Origin: Desulfovirgula sp.
GTDB lineage: Bacteria; Bacillota; Desulfotomaculia; Desulfotomaculales; Desulfovirgulaceae
Assembly (NCBI GenBank): GCA_020725525.1
Contig: DYEX01000087.1
Span: forward strand, 1 to 40,680
Length of the DNA stretch: 40,680 nt
Direction of reading: 5' to 3'
The translations under genes were made by a program, and so were the position numbers. Positions 11,306-21,096 of this stretch are shown piece after piece. The notes beneath the pieces are model-generated. The model was not told the origin of the DNA and made no database searches. It saw nothing but the letters and a program-made list of their open reading frames with translations. The stretch's first letter is position 1, and each line of letters begins with the position of its first letter.

Positions 11306-11728
11306 ATGCAGGCCAAATTTGAACCAAAGATCACCGCCTTCCTTTGCAACTGGTGCAGTTACGCAGGTGCCGACCTCGCCGGGTCGCTGCGGTTCCAGTA
11401 TCCCCCGAATGTGATGATCATCAGGGTGCCCTGCTCTGGAAGGGTTGCTCCGATATTTATACTGAAAGCCCTTTTCGCCGGCGCTGACGGCGTGCTGGTA
11501 GGTGGGTGACATCCCGGAGACTGCCACTATGTTAGTGGCAATTATAATGCTGAACGGCGCACCAAAATCACCCAGCGGCTTTTAGATACACTGGGAATTG
11601 AGCGACAGCGGCTCCGGTTGGCCTGGATTTCCGCTTCGGAAGGAGCCAAATTTGCTGAGACGGTAAGCGATTTCACCAACCAACTAAGGGAATTGGGTCC
11701 TAACCCACTGTGTATGACGAACGGATAA
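11306..11728 (+). CDS. flxD: MvhD/FlxD-type [2Fe-2S] subunit, selenoprotein (Sec68)
   Basis: 140 residues if UGA at 11507-11509 is read as selenocysteine. Read as a stop, it leaves a 67-residue fragment. MvhD/FlxD carries a [2Fe-2S] cluster and joins an electron donor (a hydrogenase, or here FlxABC) to HdrA. Family segments lie on both sides of the UGA in one frame: [14 protein letters not shown] (C14, C17), VPCSGR (C43), GADGVLVGG, then UGA, then [13 protein letters not shown] and [14 protein letters not shown]. The UGA falls exactly on the Cys of the conserved GCHxGDCHY motif. A stem-loop follows it. ATG 11306 is behind AAAGGAG. A plain nonsense mutation is the alternative, but it would not predict the conserved position or the hairpin. 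Confidence 0.9.
11507..11542 (+). promoter_or_regulatory. UGA selenocysteine codon and putative bacterial SECIS (flxD)
   Basis: UGA at 11507-11509 is followed by a perfect 8-bp stem, TGCCACTA (11522-11529) with TAGTGGCA (11533-11540), and a TGT loop beginning 21 nt after the UGA. Bacterial SECIS elements lie just downstream of the UGA inside the coding region, with a G in the first two loop bases; here the second base is G. The assignment rests on position and shape and is not experimental. Confidence 0.75.
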
Positions 11729-14720: not shown

Positions 14721-15944
14721 ATGAGTATGATCGTGGCCGCACAACTGGACCCCGCTTTTCGGGATGAGTTGGCGGAAAAGATGAAAAGTTTGGACTTTGC
14801 CAATTGCCTGGCCTGCGGGATGTGTACGGCAGGCTGTGCCTTCTCCGACCTTCATCCAGACAACGACCCCCGCAAGATGCTGCGTAAAGTAATCCTGGGA
14901 ATGCGGGAGGAAATTTTAAAGGATCCCTTTATCTGGTACTGCACCATGTGTGAACGGTGCACTATTGAGTGTCCCATGTGTGTGAATATTGCTGCTGTCA
15001 CCAGAACCATTCGCGGCAATTTCCGCACTGACTCACCCGGTTTCCTGCAAAAAGTGGTTGACGACACCATCAAGTCCGGCAACCAGATGGATGTGCAGCC
15101 TGACGAATATCTGGAAACCCTGGAGTGGCTGCAGGAAGAACTGCAGGCTGAACTGGACGACCCCGCCTACCGCATTCCTCTCGATGTAGAAGGCGCGGAC
15201 TTCCTCTTTGGCTTTAACGCCCGGGAAGTAAAGTACTACCCTAACGAATTGCAGAACATCCTGAAGATATTCTATGCCGCCGGGGCCAACTACACATTGA
15301 GTACCAAAAAGTGGGATGCCACCAATCTGGCCCTTTTCAGTGGTAGAGATGACGACTTCTGGAAAATTACCGGACCAATGCTACAGGAAGTGGTGCGGCT
15401 CAAGGCCAAGGAACTGGTGGTTACCGAATGCGGCCACGCTTTCCGTTCCGTACGCTGGGGTTACCGGACATTCTGGAAGGGACCGCAGTTCCCCATCCGC
15501 AGCATCCTGGAGGTTCTGGATGAGTGGATCCAGCAAGGGCGGATTAAGCTGGATCCGGCCAGGAACCCTGAACCGGTTACACTCCACGATCCCTGCAACC
15601 TGGTGCGCAAGGAAGGGGTAGTTGAGCCGCAGCGCCGGGTTTTGAAGGCTGCGGTGATGGATTTCCGGGAAATGTGGCCCAACAGCCGGTGGAACTATTG
15701 CTGCGGCGCCGGCGGCGGTGCCCTGGCCATGCCCGAATATACGGAACAGCGTTTGATCAAAGCCAGGCGAAAGGTGGACCAGCTTCTGGCTACCGGAGCA
15801 AAAATTGTGGCTATTCCCTGCCACAACTGCATGGACCAGTTCAACGACCTGAACAAGCATTACAAGCTGGGCATGAAAATGGAGCATGTATGCAGCATTG
15901 TCGAAAGAGCCTTAGTCATGCCCGGGAAAAAGCCTAAAGCTTAG
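14721..15944 (+). CDS. HdrC-HdrB fusion protein (HdrD-like), one intact CCG domain
   Basis: 407 residues. The N-terminal HdrC-like part has C29-x2-C32-x2-C35-x3-C39 and a second set, CTMCERCTIECP, near residue 75. The C-terminal HdrB-like part has one complete CCG domain (DPCNLVRK, YCCGAGGG, CHNCMDQF). The region where the first CCG domain should be (about residues 150-260) has almost no cysteine, so only one non-cubane cluster is expected. This resembles HmcF/DsrK/HdrD-type proteins. It probably joins the double HdrA and MvhD downstream and passes electrons toward MetV-MetF. ATG 14721 follows GGGGAGG. Confidence 0.88.
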   Translation: MSMIVAAQLDPAFRDELAEKMKSLDFANCLACGMCTAGCAFSDLHPDNDPRKMLRKVILGMREEILKDPFIWYCTMCERCTIECPMCVNIAAVTRTIRGNFRTDSPGFLQKVVDDTIKSGNQMDVQPDEYLETLEWLQEELQAELDDPAYRIPLDVEGADFLFGFNAREVKYYPNELQNILKIFYAAGANYTLSTKKWDATNLALFSGRDDDFWKITGPMLQEVVRLKAKELVVTECGHAFRSVRWGYRTFWKGPQFPIRSILEVLDEWIQQGRIKLDPARNPEPVTLHDPCNLVRKEGVVEPQRRVLKAAVMDFREMWPNSRWNYCCGAGGGALAMPEYTEQRLIKARRKVDQLLATGAKIVAIPCHNCMDQFNDLNKHYKLGMKMEHVCSIVERALVMPGKKPKA

Positions 15945-16048: not shown

Positions 16049-19000
16049 ATGAGTGCTGAGAAAACAGGGTCGGTACTGGTGGTGGGGGCGGGTATCGCCG
16101 GCATCCAGGCCTCCCTGGATCTGGCCGAATCAGGCTATTACGTCTACCTGGTGGAAGGTTCTCCGGCCATTGGCGGCACAATGCCTATGCTGGATAAAAC
16201 TTTTCCCACCAATGACTGTTCCATGTGTATCCTTTCCCCCAAGCTGGTGGAATGCGGCCGTCACTTGAATATCAAAACTTATACCTGCGCCGATGTGGTG
16301 GATGTGCAGGGTGAGCCGGGTAATTTCACCGTGACCATCCGTCAACGCCCACGCTACGTGGACGTGGACAAATGTAAGGGATGCGGCGAATGCGCCGAGG
16401 CCTGCCCCATCGATGTCCCTTCGGAGTTCGACCAGGGGATCGGTGAGCGCAAGGCCATCTATAAGCCCTACGCCCAGGCCTTTCCCAACGCCTATGTCAT
16501 TGACAAGGAAAACTGTATCGAGTGCGGTGCCTGCGAGGAAGCCTGCCAGGCCGGAGCCATCGACCATTCCATGGAAGAGGAAACCATTGAGCTGAAGGTA
16601 GGGGCCGTGGTCCTCTGCCCGGGCTTTGAAAAATTCGACGCTTCCAAGCTGGCCTATTATGGTTACGGCAGATATCCCAATGTTTTGACCAGCCTGGAAT
16701 TTGAACGCATTCTAAGCGCTTCCGGTCCCTTCCAGGGTCACCTGGTCAGGCCCTACGATAAAAAAGAACCCCGGCGCATTGCCTGGATTCAGTGCGTGGG
16801 TTCCCGTAACTGCCGGGTGGAGCACGGTTACTGCTCCTCGGTATGCTGCATGTATGCCATCAAGGAAGCAGTCATAGCCAGGGAACACAGTAAAGAACCC
16901 CTGGAAATCACCATTTTCTACATGGACATGCGCACCTATGGCAAGGGCTTTGAGAAGTACTACGAGCGAGCCAGGAATGAACAAGGGGTTAGGTTCATTC
17001 GTTCACGGACTTATGAAATTTCGGAAGTGGAAGACGAAAGCAAAAATTTACGCATTCGTTATGCTCAGGAAGACGGCAGCATCTGTGAAGAAGAATTCGA
17101 TCTGGTTGTGCTGTCCATCGGCCTTGAACCCTCATCCAGCATAAAGGAACTGGGCCGGAAGCTCGGGCTTACGATGAACGAGTACGGGTTTGCGGAGCCC
17201 GCTCCCCTTACCGGGGTAGGGACAAACAAACCGGGCATTTTCGTAGCCGGTGCCTTCAGCGGACCCAAGGACATCCCTGAAACGGTAATGCAGGCCAGTG
17301 CCGCTGCCGGTGCTTCGGCCAGCCTCCTGGCGGAAGCCCGGGGTACCCTGGTGAAGGAAAAGGAATTTCCACCGGAAAAGGACGTCAGCGGGCAGCCACC
17401 ACGTATTGGTGTTTTTGTCTGCCACTGCGGCGTGAACATTGGCGGTGTGGTCAAGGTACCCGAAGTGGTGGAAATGGCCAAGAATTTGCCCAACGTGGTT
17501 TATGCCGGCGAATATCTCTATGCCTGCTCCCAGGACAGTCAGGCGGCCATGAAACAAATCATTGAAGAATACGACCTGAACCGGGTGGTTGTGGCCTCGT
17601 GCAGTCCGCGAACCCACAAGCCCCTCTTCCAGGAAACCGTCCGGGAAGCCGGGTTAAACCGGGCATTGTTTGAAATGGCCAACATCCGTGACCAGTGTTC
17701 CTGGGTACACATGCATGAACCAGAAAAAGCCACTGAAAAGGCCAAGGACCTGGTGAAAATGGTAGTAGCCAAAGCTGCCCTTCTGGAGCCGATTCCGCAG
17801 GTTTCGGCCGGTGTGACCAAGGTTGCCCTGGTCATCGGCGGCGGCGTATCAGGCATGACCAGTGCCCTTTCCTTAGCCGATTTGGGCTACCGGGTACACC
17901 TGGTGGAAAAAGAGCAGCAATTGGGCGGCGTGGCCCGGCGTATTAAGCAGGGTTTAAAGGGCGAAGATATACCGTCCTTCTTAAGCGATCTTATTGCCAG
18001 AGTAACGACACACCCCAACATCCAGGTTCATGTCGGTACGGAAGTGCAAGCAGTGGCCGGTTATGTGGGCAATTTCGTCACCACCCTGACGGACGGTCAG
18101 GAAGTACAGCATGGCGTGGCCATTATCGCCATCGGCGGTGAAGAATACAAGCCCACCGAGTACCTTTATGGTGAAAGTGACCGGGTATTTACCCAGCTGG
18201 AGCTGGAGGAAGCCCTGGCAGGGGGAGACCCGCGCATTGAGAACGCCAGGACTTTTGTGCTCATCCAGTGCGTCGGATCCCGGGAGCCCCAGCGCCCCTA
18301 CTGCAGCCGGGTATGCTGTGCCAAATCCGTCAAACTGGCTTTAAAGCTTAAGGAAAAGAACCCCGCAGTAAATGTATTTGTGCTCTACCGTGATATCCGC
18401 ACCTATGGCTTTTTAGAGGATTATTACCTGGAAGCCCGCCGTAAGGGTGTGGTCTTCATCCGTTACGACTCCGCAAACAAACCGCTGGTTGAAAAGGGAG
18501 ACAGCGCCCTCAAGGTTACCGTTACCGATCACGTCCTGGGTGTACCGGTAGTCATTGACGCCGATGTAATCGGACTGGCATCGGCCATTGTAGCTCCGGA
18601 AAGCAACCGCCAGCTAAGCCAGCTCTTTAAAGTGCCTTTGAACGAAGATGGCTTCTTCCTGGAAGCCCATATGAAGTTACGACCGGTGGACTTTACTTCT
18701 GAAGGCATTTTCATGGCCGGCTTGGCCCATGGACCGAAGAACCTGGAGGAAAATATAGCCCAGGCCAAAGCAGCCGCGGGCAGGGCTTCTACTATTCTCG
18801 GCAAGGATCAGCTGGAATCCCACGGTGTTGTGGCTGTGGTTCAACAGGACAAGTGCGCGGCCTGCCTGACCTGCGTACGGCTTTGTCCATATAATGCCCC
18901 CAAAATTAGAAATTACGCTGCCGAGATTGAACCGCTACTCTGCCAGGGCTGTGGTACCTGCGCCGGAGAGTGTCCCAACAAGGCCATTACCCTCCAGGGC

Positions 19001-19054
19001 TATAAAGACCGCATGCAAATGGCCATGAGCAGAGCTTTATTCAGGGAGGTGTAA
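16049..19054 (+). CDS. hdrA2: Double-length HdrA (two HdrA modules, two FAD sites)
   Basis: 1001 residues. Two HdrA-like halves are joined. Half one (about 1-445) has FAD motif VVGAGIAG, TFPTNDCSMCILSP, two ferredoxin motifs (CKGCGECAEACP, CIECGACEEACQ) and CVGSRNCRVEHGYCSSVCC. Half two starts near residue 450 with the HdrA N-terminal domain (IGVFVCHCG), has VIGGGVSG near 592, a second CVGSRE...CSRVCC region and two C-terminal ferredoxin motifs beginning near C936 and C965. Similar long HdrAs belong to the HdrABC-MvhD-MetVF complex of Moorella. In half two the segment matching TFPTNDC is absent (it reads GVARRIKQG), so the halves are not equivalent. ATG 16049 is behind GAAAGGACGGGTGTG. It is followed immediately by a selenoprotein mvhD. 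Confidence 0.94.
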   Translation: MSAEKTGSVLVVGAGIAGIQASLDLAESGYYVYLVEGSPAIGGTMPMLDKTFPTNDCSMCILSPKLVECGRHLNIKTYTCADVVDVQGEPGNFTVTIRQRPRYVDVDKCKGCGECAEACPIDVPSEFDQGIGERKAIYKPYAQAFPNAYVIDKENCIECGACEEACQAGAIDHSMEEETIELKVGAVVLCPGFEKFDASKLAYYGYGRYPNVLTSLEFERILSASGPFQGHLVRPYDKKEPRRIAWIQCVGSRNCRVEHGYCSSVCCMYAIKEAVIAREHSKEPLEITIFYMDMRTYGKGFEKYYERARNEQGVRFIRSRTYEISEVEDESKNLRIRYAQEDGSICEEEFDLVVLSIGLEPSSSIKELGRKLGLTMNEYGFAEPAPLTGVGTNKPGIFVAGAFSGPKDIPETVMQASAAAGASASLLAEARGTLVKEKEFPPEKDVSGQPPRIGVFVCHCGVNIGGVVKVPEVVEMAKNLPNVVYAGEYLYACSQDSQAAMKQIIEEYDLNRVVVASCSPRTHKPLFQETVREAGLNRALFEMANIRDQCSWVHMHEPEKATEKAKDLVKMVVAKAALLEPIPQVSAGVTKVALVIGGGVSGMTSALSLADLGYRVHLVEKEQQLGGVARRIKQGLKGEDIPSFLSDLIARVTTHPNIQVHVGTEVQAVAGYVGNFVTTLTDGQEVQHGVAIIAIGGEEYKPTEYLYGESDRVFTQLELEEALAGGDPRIENARTFVLIQCVGSREPQRPYCSRVCCAKSVKLALKLKEKNPAVNVFVLYRDIRTYGFLEDYYLEARRKGVVFIRYDSANKPLVEKGDSALKVTVTDHVLGVPVVIDADVIGLASAIVAPESNRQLSQLFKVPLNEDGFFLEAHMKLRPVDFTSEGIFMAGLAHGPKNLEENIAQAKAAAGRASTILGKDQLESHGVVAVVQQDKCAACLTCVRLCPYNAPKIRNYAAEIEPLLCQGCGTCAGECPNKAITLQGYKDRMQMAMSRALFREV

Positions 19055-19058
19055 CCCA

Positions 19059-19508
19059 GTGGGAGAATTTGAGCCGAAAATTGTGGCCTTTTGCTGCCAC
19101 TACTGAGCTTACTCAGCGGCGGACCTGGCAGGTTCGATGCGATTGCAATATGTGCCCAACATTAGAATTGTGGAAATGCCCTGCTCGGGTACCATTGATC
19201 ACCGGGTGCTCCTGCAGGCATTTGAAGACGGTGCCGACGGAGTATTTGTGGCCGGCTGTATGGAAGGTGACTGCCACTTCCAGAAAGGAAACTATCGGGC
19301 CAGGAAACGGGTAAACGCAGTCAAAAAGCTGCTCGATGAAATCGGGCTGGGTGGGGAACGCCTGGAAATGTACAACCTTTCCGCGGCTATGGGGCCTCGT
19401 TTTGCGGAAATAGCCAACGAGATGACCGAACGTGTCCGCCGGTTGGGACCCAGCCCCCTTAAAAAACAAAGTGCGGGGACCATGGAGAAAGAAGGTGATG
19501 TGGCATGA
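19059..19508 (+). CDS. mvhD: MvhD [2Fe-2S] subunit, selenoprotein (Sec16)
   Basis: 149 residues when UGA at 19104-19106 is read as selenocysteine. A GTG start at 19059 follows GGGAGGT with 8-nt spacing, and the frame reads EFEPKIVAFCCHY-U-AYSAADLAGS into the rest of MvhD (MPCSG with C42; AGCMEGDCHF with C67 and C72). The family has CxWC at this place, as in the paralogue at 11306 (CNWC), so Sec replaces its second Cys. Without recoding the only ORF would begin at internal ATG 19137, without a ribosome site and without the conserved N-terminus. The gene lies 4 nt after hdrA2, and its stop overlaps the metV start (ATGA). It probably docks MetV-MetF or another donor onto HdrA2. Confidence 0.9.
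19104..19140 (+). promoter_or_regulatory. UGA selenocysteine codon and putative bacterial SECIS (mvhD)
   Basis: UGA at 19104-19106. Downstream, CGGACCT (19120-19126) pairs with AGGTTCG (19130-19136) including one G-U, around a GGC loop starting 21 nt after the UGA. Below a G-A mismatch, three more pairs (19116-19118 with 19138-19140) extend the stem. A loop opening with GG fits bacterial SECIS rules. The loop offset is the same as in the other UGA-containing paralogue. Confidence 0.77.
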
Positions 19509-20176
19509 TCATAGCACAACAAAAGCCAATTAAAGATATTGCCGAAATGATTGCCGACTGCAAAAAAGTTCTCCTGGTTGGCTGTGCTGGTTGTGTGACC
19601 GTCTGTCTGGCCGGGGGTGAAAAGGAAACTGAAATATTAGCCGCAGCTCTGCGCATCATGCGCCGGTTACAGGACAATCCTCTTGAAACGGTAACTTATG
19701 TTGCCACCAGACAGTGCGACCCGGAATATATCGCTACGATGGACAATCTGGTTAAAGATGTTGATGCCATTATTTCCCTCGCCTGCGGTGTAGGCGTGCA
19801 GTACATTGCCGAGCGGTATCATGATAAGTGGGTGGTACCTGCCCTTGATACCAAGTTTATCGGTGGTTCCAAGGTCCATGGCGTGTGGGAAGAAAAGTGC
19901 GGCCTCTGCGGTGACTGCGTGCTGCACCGCACCGGCGGCATCTGTCCCATCATCCGTTGTTCCAAGAGCATTTTAAACGGTCCCTGTGGCGGTTCCCAGT
20001 ACGGCAAATGCGAGATCAGCAAGGATGTGGATTGTGCATGGCAACTGATCTACGACCGCATGAAAGCTCTGGGCAGGCTGGATAAGCTTATGGAAATTCA
20101 GCCACCCAAAGATTGGTCCAAGTCCCGTGACGGAGGGCCGCGTAAAGCTATCAGGGAGGATGTGATGATCGGGTGA
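19505..20176 (+). CDS. metV: Methylenetetrahydrofolate reductase-associated protein MetV
   Basis: 223 residues. Iron-sulfur/zinc partner of MetF in acetogen-type methylene-THF reductases. It is cysteine-rich: GCAGCVTVC near the N-terminus, RQCDPEY, LACGVGVQ, then CGLCGDCVLHRTGGICPIIRC and GPCGG near the C-terminus. Those segments are typical of the MetV family (methylene-THF reductase C-terminal-like domain). It starts within the mvhD stop (ATGA) and ends overlapping metF (GTGA), so mvhD-metV-metF should be translationally coupled, with MetV as the probable electron link between the Hdr part and MetF. Confidence 0.93.
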   Translation: MIIAQQKPIKDIAEMIADCKKVLLVGCAGCVTVCLAGGEKETEILAAALRIMRRLQDNPLETVTYVATRQCDPEYIATMDNLVKDVDAIISLACGVGVQYIAERYHDKWVVPALDTKFIGGSKVHGVWEEKCGLCGDCVLHRTGGICPIIRCSKSILNGPCGGSQYGKCEISKDVDCAWQLIYDRMKALGRLDKLMEIQPPKDWSKSRDGGPRKAIREDVMIG

Positions 20177-21096
20177 AAACAGAAAGCAAACTGCAAAAGC
20201 TCCTTGACAGCGGCCACTTTGCGGTGACTGCGGAAATCGGGCCGCCCAAGCATGCCTCTGCCCATGGTATTCGCCACCATGCGCACATGTTGAAGAATTA
20301 CGTTGACGCCACCAATATCACCGACTGTCAGACTGCCATCGTGCGGCTCTCCAGCATTGCCGCCGCCGTGCATATTCGTGACTGCGGCCTGGAGCCAATT
20401 GTGCAAATGACCTGCCGGGATAGAAACCGCATTGCCATCCAAAGTGACCTTTTGGGAGCCTACAGTTTGGGGATCAGAAACCTGCTTTGCCTGTCCGGGG
20501 ACCATCAAAAGTTCGGTAACGAACCCTCGGCCAAGAATGTCTACGATATCGACTCCATACAGTTGATCTATTTGATGCGCCGTATGCGGGACGAAAAGCT
20601 TTTCTTCTCTGGTGAACCCATTAAAGAGCACGAACCCCGTTTCTTCATCGGAGCGGTGGCCAACCCCTTTGCCGATCCCTTTGAGTTCCGGGTGGCCCGG
20701 CTGGAGAAAAAAGTAGAGGCCGGGGCAGAGTTTATCCAGACCCAGTGCATTTTTGATATGGAACGTTTTGAGCGCTTCATGGAGATGGTCCGGGAAAGGG
20801 GTATTCACGAGCGGGTACACATCCTGGCCGGAGTTACTCCGCTGAAAAGCTGGCGGGCAGCAAAATACCTGCAAACCAGCGTCTCGGGTATGATTGTACC
20901 CGATGATATCGTCGAAAGACTGAAAAAAGCAGAGGATCCCAAGCGGGAAGGGATTGAGATCTGTATCGAGCAAATCAAACATATCCGCAATATTCCCGGA
21001 GTACATGGCGTGCACATCATGGCCATTGCCTGGGAAGAAGTGGTGCCCGAAATTGTGGAAAGGTCCGGTCTTTACCCGCGGCCGAAAGTGGAATAA
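20173..21096 (+). CDS. metF: 5,10-methylenetetrahydrofolate reductase
   Basis: 307 residues, a FAD-containing TIM-barrel that reduces methylene-THF to methyl-THF, the substrate of AcsE. Recognisable segments: FAVTAEIGPPKHA at the N-terminus, LCLSGDHQKFG, and FIQTQCIFDMERFERFM. The GTG start overlaps the metV stop by 4 nt. In relatives with MetV and Hdr subunits the electron donor is not a simple NADH site on MetF, which fits this arrangement. It is the last gene of the second Hdr module, followed by a strong terminator. Confidence 0.96.
   Translation: MKTESKLQKLLDSGHFAVTAEIGPPKHASAHGIRHHAHMLKNYVDATNITDCQTAIVRLSSIAAAVHIRDCGLEPIVQMTCRDRNRIAIQSDLLGAYSLGIRNLLCLSGDHQKFGNEPSAKNVYDIDSIQLIYLMRRMRDEKLFFSGEPIKEHEPRFFIGAVANPFADPFEFRVARLEKKVEAGAEFIQTQCIFDMERFERFMEMVRERGIHERVHILAGVTPLKSWRAAKYLQTSVSGMIVPDDIVERLKKAEDPKREGIEICIEQIKHIRNIPGVHGVHIMAIAWEEVVPEIVERSGLYPRPKVE

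Follow-up and report, generated by a model that had tools for sequence, protein, structure and literature searches.

Genes at the mvhD2 locus

The window (the whole analysed stretch of Desulfovirgula sp. DNA, 40,680 nucleotides) carries, judging from the open reading frames on which the CODH/ACS assignment is based, a Wood-Ljungdahl cluster. The order of genes is: CODH/ACS genes, hdrA, hdrC, hdrB, mvhD1, three Fe-S/flavin genes, an hdrD-like gene, an hdrA encoding a 1001-aa protein, mvhD2, metV and metF. The three Fe-S/flavin genes following mvhD1 appear to resemble flxCBA. Domain searches assigned the forward-strand region upstream of mvhD2 to an HdrD/HmcF-like Fe-S protein (14721..15944), composed of an HdrC-like part and a CCG domain, and to the long form of HdrA (16049..19054, 1001 aa), which appears to be fused to a second flavoprotein/Fe-S half. 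Directly downstream of mvhD2, on the same strand, Pfam searches identified metV (19505..20176; DUF5981, methylene-THF reductase C-terminal protein) and metF (20173..21096; methylene-THF reductase), which agrees with the original prediction of an MvhD adjoining MetV-MetF. The genes hdrA, mvhD, metV and metF are placed in one cluster, as expected for a Met-type complex (HdrABC-MvhD-MetVF), with mvhD2 between hdrA and metV-metF, and the same arrangement has been reported for the Met bifurcating complex (PMC6085437).

The mvhD2 gene (19059..19508, forward strand) encodes an electron-transfer subunit of the FlpD/MvhD type of 149 aa, predicted to be a selenoprotein. Its translation reads VGEFEPKIVAFCCHYU16AYSAADLAG...GDVA and is followed by a TGA stop at 19506-19508. 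The GTG start is preceded, at a distance of 7 nt, by the good ribosome binding site GGGAGGTG (19044..19051, forward strand), as had been proposed. The PF02662 (FlpD) profile matched residues 8-130 over its full length (positions 1-123 of 123; 174.7 bits with a cut-off of 22.3; E 9e-52). In the translation, 15 residues precede the UGA (codon 16; 19104..19106, forward strand), which stands at the second Cys of a CxxC pair and is followed by the remaining gene. In a 12-sequence alignment the Cys set C13, C16, C42, C67 and C72 was invariant, with Sec in place of C16. The motif itself had been given as CxWC; it is C-H-Y-U in mvhD2, the W being a feature of other MvhD proteins. The nearest named MvhD (94% identity) is that of Desulfofundulus thermosubterraneus. 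Judged by this protein, the source would very probably belong to Desulfofundulus, a genus of Bacillota that reduce sulfate and form spores.

Standard gene calling in the mvhD2 frame yields only a truncated, 123-aa ORF starting at ATG 19137 (19137..19508, forward strand), so that the N-terminus is lost, as expected for automated annotation.

Distribution of Sec and Cys at residue 16

The original prediction suggested that MvhD genes next to metVF should have either UGA or Cys at residue 16. Two samples were used: in the first, MetV was searched for across 113 genomes of the class of the source organism, the upstream DNA was fetched and MvhD residue 16 was read, while in the second, 80 named loci were retrieved with an MvhD alignment and the residue was read likewise. 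Among the resulting 140 distinct MvhD sequences (nearly all adjoining metV, with a few non-MetV paralogues from the same loci included), 72 had UGA, 67 Cys and one Ser, i.e. 139/140 conformed to the expected pattern. UGA was found in Desulfofundulus, Desulfovirgula, Desulfotruncus, many Desulfobacterota MAGs, Acidobacteria MAGs and one MAG of the FCB group; the carriers of Cys include Moorella mulderi (TGT codon; L117), Sporotomaculum and Desulfoscipio. Both types occur together in one genome (G023), in which two metV copies located approximately 7 kb apart are accompanied by a Cys-type (L032) and a UGA-type (L052) MvhD, respectively.

A UGA-free close homologue with a residue other than Cys, which had been named as evidence against the prediction, was encountered once. 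This gene (L058, 788-1195), from the SelB-containing genome G111, has Ser (TCT) at residue 16, is one codon shorter and no longer shows the hairpin described below. Its Ser indicates that the site does not strictly depend on Cys or Sec, but a single case in 140 leaves the Sec/Cys pattern standing. The state of residue 16 changed at least 10 times on the tree, most forks of which are weak; only two independent pairs were well supported, both in the expected direction, which gives the paired test little power. Since the sequences are related, Fisher p values are not true probabilities.

A conserved SECIS-like hairpin downstream of the UGA

A bacterial SECIS-like hairpin with a 7-bp stem and the loop GGC (19127-19129) is located at 19120..19136 of the forward strand. 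A stem with this loop had been proposed to start 21 nt after the UGA: the hairpin is real and its loop does begin at that distance (20 nt in between), but the stem begins already 14 nt after the UGA. The hairpin lies within all of the published bSECIS limits (loop of 3-9 nt, stem of 4-16 bp, G in the first two loop positions, spacing of 16-37 nt and MFE <= -7.5; PMC13188914). Its folding energy of -8.2 kcal/mol is, taken alone, unremarkable (z -0.9 to -1.4), and the mean energies of UGA and Cys genes (-8.6 vs -8.1 kcal/mol) showed no separation. Conservation was therefore used as the test.

The 6-bp core stem was complete in all 71 distinct UGA genes and in only 2 of the 57 Cys genes, and therefore its conservation among UGA genes is not due to chance; the GGC loop was likewise found in 71/71. 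The one sequence change within the core stem (L187, U-A to U-G) keeps the pairing, while the outermost C-G pair is replaced by G-C in four genes and is unpaired in 17 others. Constraint was also visible at synonymous sites. Codons 21-25 (GCG GAC CTG GCA GGT) showed no synonymous variation across 27 UGA genes from the class of the source organism, whereas they vary in Cys genes. For codons 22-27 the mean synonymous identity was 0.95 in UGA genes and 0.55 in Cys genes, with 0.50 for the other codons of the same UGA genes. Among Cys-type genes, L032 has kept the exact SECIS motif and L030 and L034 nearly all of it (codons 16-26), as though these genes had been converted from Sec to Cys not long ago; the L032 motif in particular resembles a remnant of such a change.

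Upstream of the UGA, the wobble positions vary and the amino acids are constant, which indicates that the N-terminal part is translated. This bears directly on the possibility that translation in fact yields the short ORF beginning at ATG 19137, lacking the N-terminal Cys pair, with the UGA acting as the true stop of an upstream remnant. Such a product would correspond to what a standard caller finds, and an AGG is present a few nucleotides before the ATG; however, the first 15 residues are conserved as protein while their synonymous sites vary, the Cys homologues are full length, and the ribosome site at GTG 19059 is strong, which together make this reading very unlikely.

Selenocysteine machinery in the source genome

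The source genome (3.24 Mb) holds SelA, SelB, SelD and tRNA-Sec, so the absence of selenocysteine machinery, which would have spoken against Sec at residue 16, was not observed. The genes for SelA and SelB are adjacent (contig C102) and the anticodon of the tRNA-Sec is tca (UCA). The gene for SelD (L193; G000 C148:2016-2939) has an in-frame TGA of its own, and its product is probably a selenoprotein itself. SelB was found in nearly every genome of the class, so its presence does not discriminate UGA from Cys genes.

The frame is open under any code in which UGA specifies a residue, and the codon might be translated as Trp or Cys, either by suppression or in a changed code. We consider this extremely unlikely, as UGA is a normal stop in the source genome, including the end of mvhD2 itself, the aligned residue is Cys and not Trp, and the hairpin and the machinery fit Sec insertion. 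One in-frame stop in one assembly could also be a sequencing error or the mark of a pseudogene, but this explanation is refuted by the comparative data and its probability is practically nil, given the intact frame downstream and the occurrence of UGA at the same codon in 72 distinct sequences, which span many genera and more than one phylum.

The prediction of a selenoprotein is thus strongly supported by the Sec/Cys pairing, the conserved SECIS-like hairpin and the complete Sec machinery.

An alternative Sec position at residue 67

The second FlpD selenoprotein predicted in the window, mvhD1 (flxD-like; 11306..11728, forward strand), has its UGA at codon 68 (11507-11509), within the context GGUHPGDC. 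This codon corresponds to another conserved Cys position, residue 67 of mvhD2. A strong hairpin (GCCACU...AGUGGC) is located just 3' of it. Three FlpD paralogues of the source genome, i.e. mvhD1 and two others (L002, G000 C98:15370-15780; L004, G000 C99:23736-24143), carry an in-frame UGA at the residue-67 position instead of 16. Within the wider set, Sec at residue 67 only was found in 10 proteins, some of them MetV-linked, and one MvhD gene adjoining metV in an Acidobacteria MAG (L185, 4004-4405) has UGA at both positions. Both of the corresponding residues are also non-standard (X) in the solved VhuD-type chain PDB 9sfi_K. In E. coli FdhF, used as a control, the established Sec is likewise displayed as X in the same structure-sequence set, so 9sfi_K likely has Sec at both sites, although X may also stand for a different modified residue.

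Proposed role of MvhD2

Taken jointly, these observations are best explained, we believe with a high degree of confidence, by mvhD2 encoding a Sec-containing MvhD, in which UGA 16 would be decoded with the aid of SelB and the hairpin, and which would work in an HdrA-MvhD-MetVF assembly. We infer Sec insertion, complex formation, a role of Sec16 at the cluster and an advantage over Cys according to the following scheme. SelB carrying Sec-tRNA(UCA) would be recruited by the hairpin located 14-30 nt downstream and decode UGA 16 as Sec. This small iron-sulfur protein would then most likely enter a complex with the adjacent HdrA, the HdrD-like protein, MetV and MetF. Within it, electrons would be passed between the flavin/Fe-S module of HdrA and MetVF, which serves as methylene-THF reductase in the Wood-Ljungdahl pathway and is a key enzyme in fixing CO2 or oxidising acetate; judged by gene order and homology, electron transfer in a methylene-THF reductase complex is the most likely role of MvhD2. 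Lying within the conserved Cys set, Sec16 probably ligates or flanks a [2Fe-2S] cluster and may tune its potential or speed redox turnover. In MvhD/ElpC, the [2Fe-2S] cluster is located close to the bifurcating FAD (PMC12350162), and a related role of a MetVF-linked complex has been discussed previously (PMC5736913).

Comparison with known systems

The hexameric Moorella enzyme has the same gene neighbours as mvhD2 and likely represents the same kind of complex, thought to pass electrons in the same way. Since the related M. mulderi gene has Cys at residue 16, the type that has been characterised probably corresponds to the Cys form, whereas mvhD2 is predicted to encode the Sec form; moreover, unlike in Moorella, HdrA is here the long, 1001-aa form and is preceded by the HdrD-like gene.

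Sec at this position of MvhD had been thought to be undescribed, and in this respect the original prediction was mistaken as far as the family is concerned. A 2026 inventory (Table 1 in PMC13188914) lists MvhD/VhuD (PF02662) as CxxU with 2 Sec, 9sfi_K is non-standard at both sites, and MvhD selenoproteins have been reported for sulfate reducers: the consulted sections of the respective reports describe mvhD1,2,3,5 of Desulfobacterium autotrophicum (PMC2702500) and mvhD of Desulfococcus multivorans (PMC5109826) as such. According to the same sections, which name neither a Sec position nor a connection with metVF, these are, like mvhD2, bacterial members of the FlpD family and adjoin hdr genes. 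The VhuD/MvhD selenoproteins of Methanococcales (PF02662, CxxU, 2 Sec; PMC13188914, PMC2933860; probably PDB 9sfi/9t1s) belong to the same family. In these archaea, however, the SECIS is located in the 3' untranslated region (PMC13188914, PMC11227280), up to two Sec are present and the partners are Vhu hydrogenase or Fdh, whereas mvhD2 has a bacterial, in-frame SECIS, Sec at residue 16 only and MetVF as neighbours.

In methanogens, Sec is already documented in this family and at this site, so mvhD2 represents a well supported and widely distributed case that is not entirely new; what stands out is its broad occurrence among bacteria and the variable placement of Sec. No statement that a MetVF-linked MvhD is a selenoprotein was found in the open-access literature, to which the search was confined, nor was a clade of MetVF-linked bacterial proteins found described there that places Sec at position 16, in some cases at 67 and seldom at both.

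Beyond the single gene, we think it reasonably probable that autotrophic sulfate reducers and their relatives share a widespread, previously unrecognised class of methylene-THF reductase complexes that contain Sec. Their MvhD would have Sec usually at residue 16, in several lineages at 67 and, in L185, at both. A single redox site would then have two Cys positions able to host Sec interchangeably, and the SECIS belonging to position 16 would have hardly changed between phyla. Among the energy-coupling steps of the Wood-Ljungdahl pathway, the reduction of methylene-THF is the one least settled. Should numerous bacteria rely on a Sec-containing MvhD, gene callers would be truncating this protein in their genomes, and biochemical results for the Cys form might not apply to them. 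Naturally occurring Sec and Cys versions of one defined Fe-S protein would then allow the contribution of selenium to flavin-based electron bifurcation to be tested.
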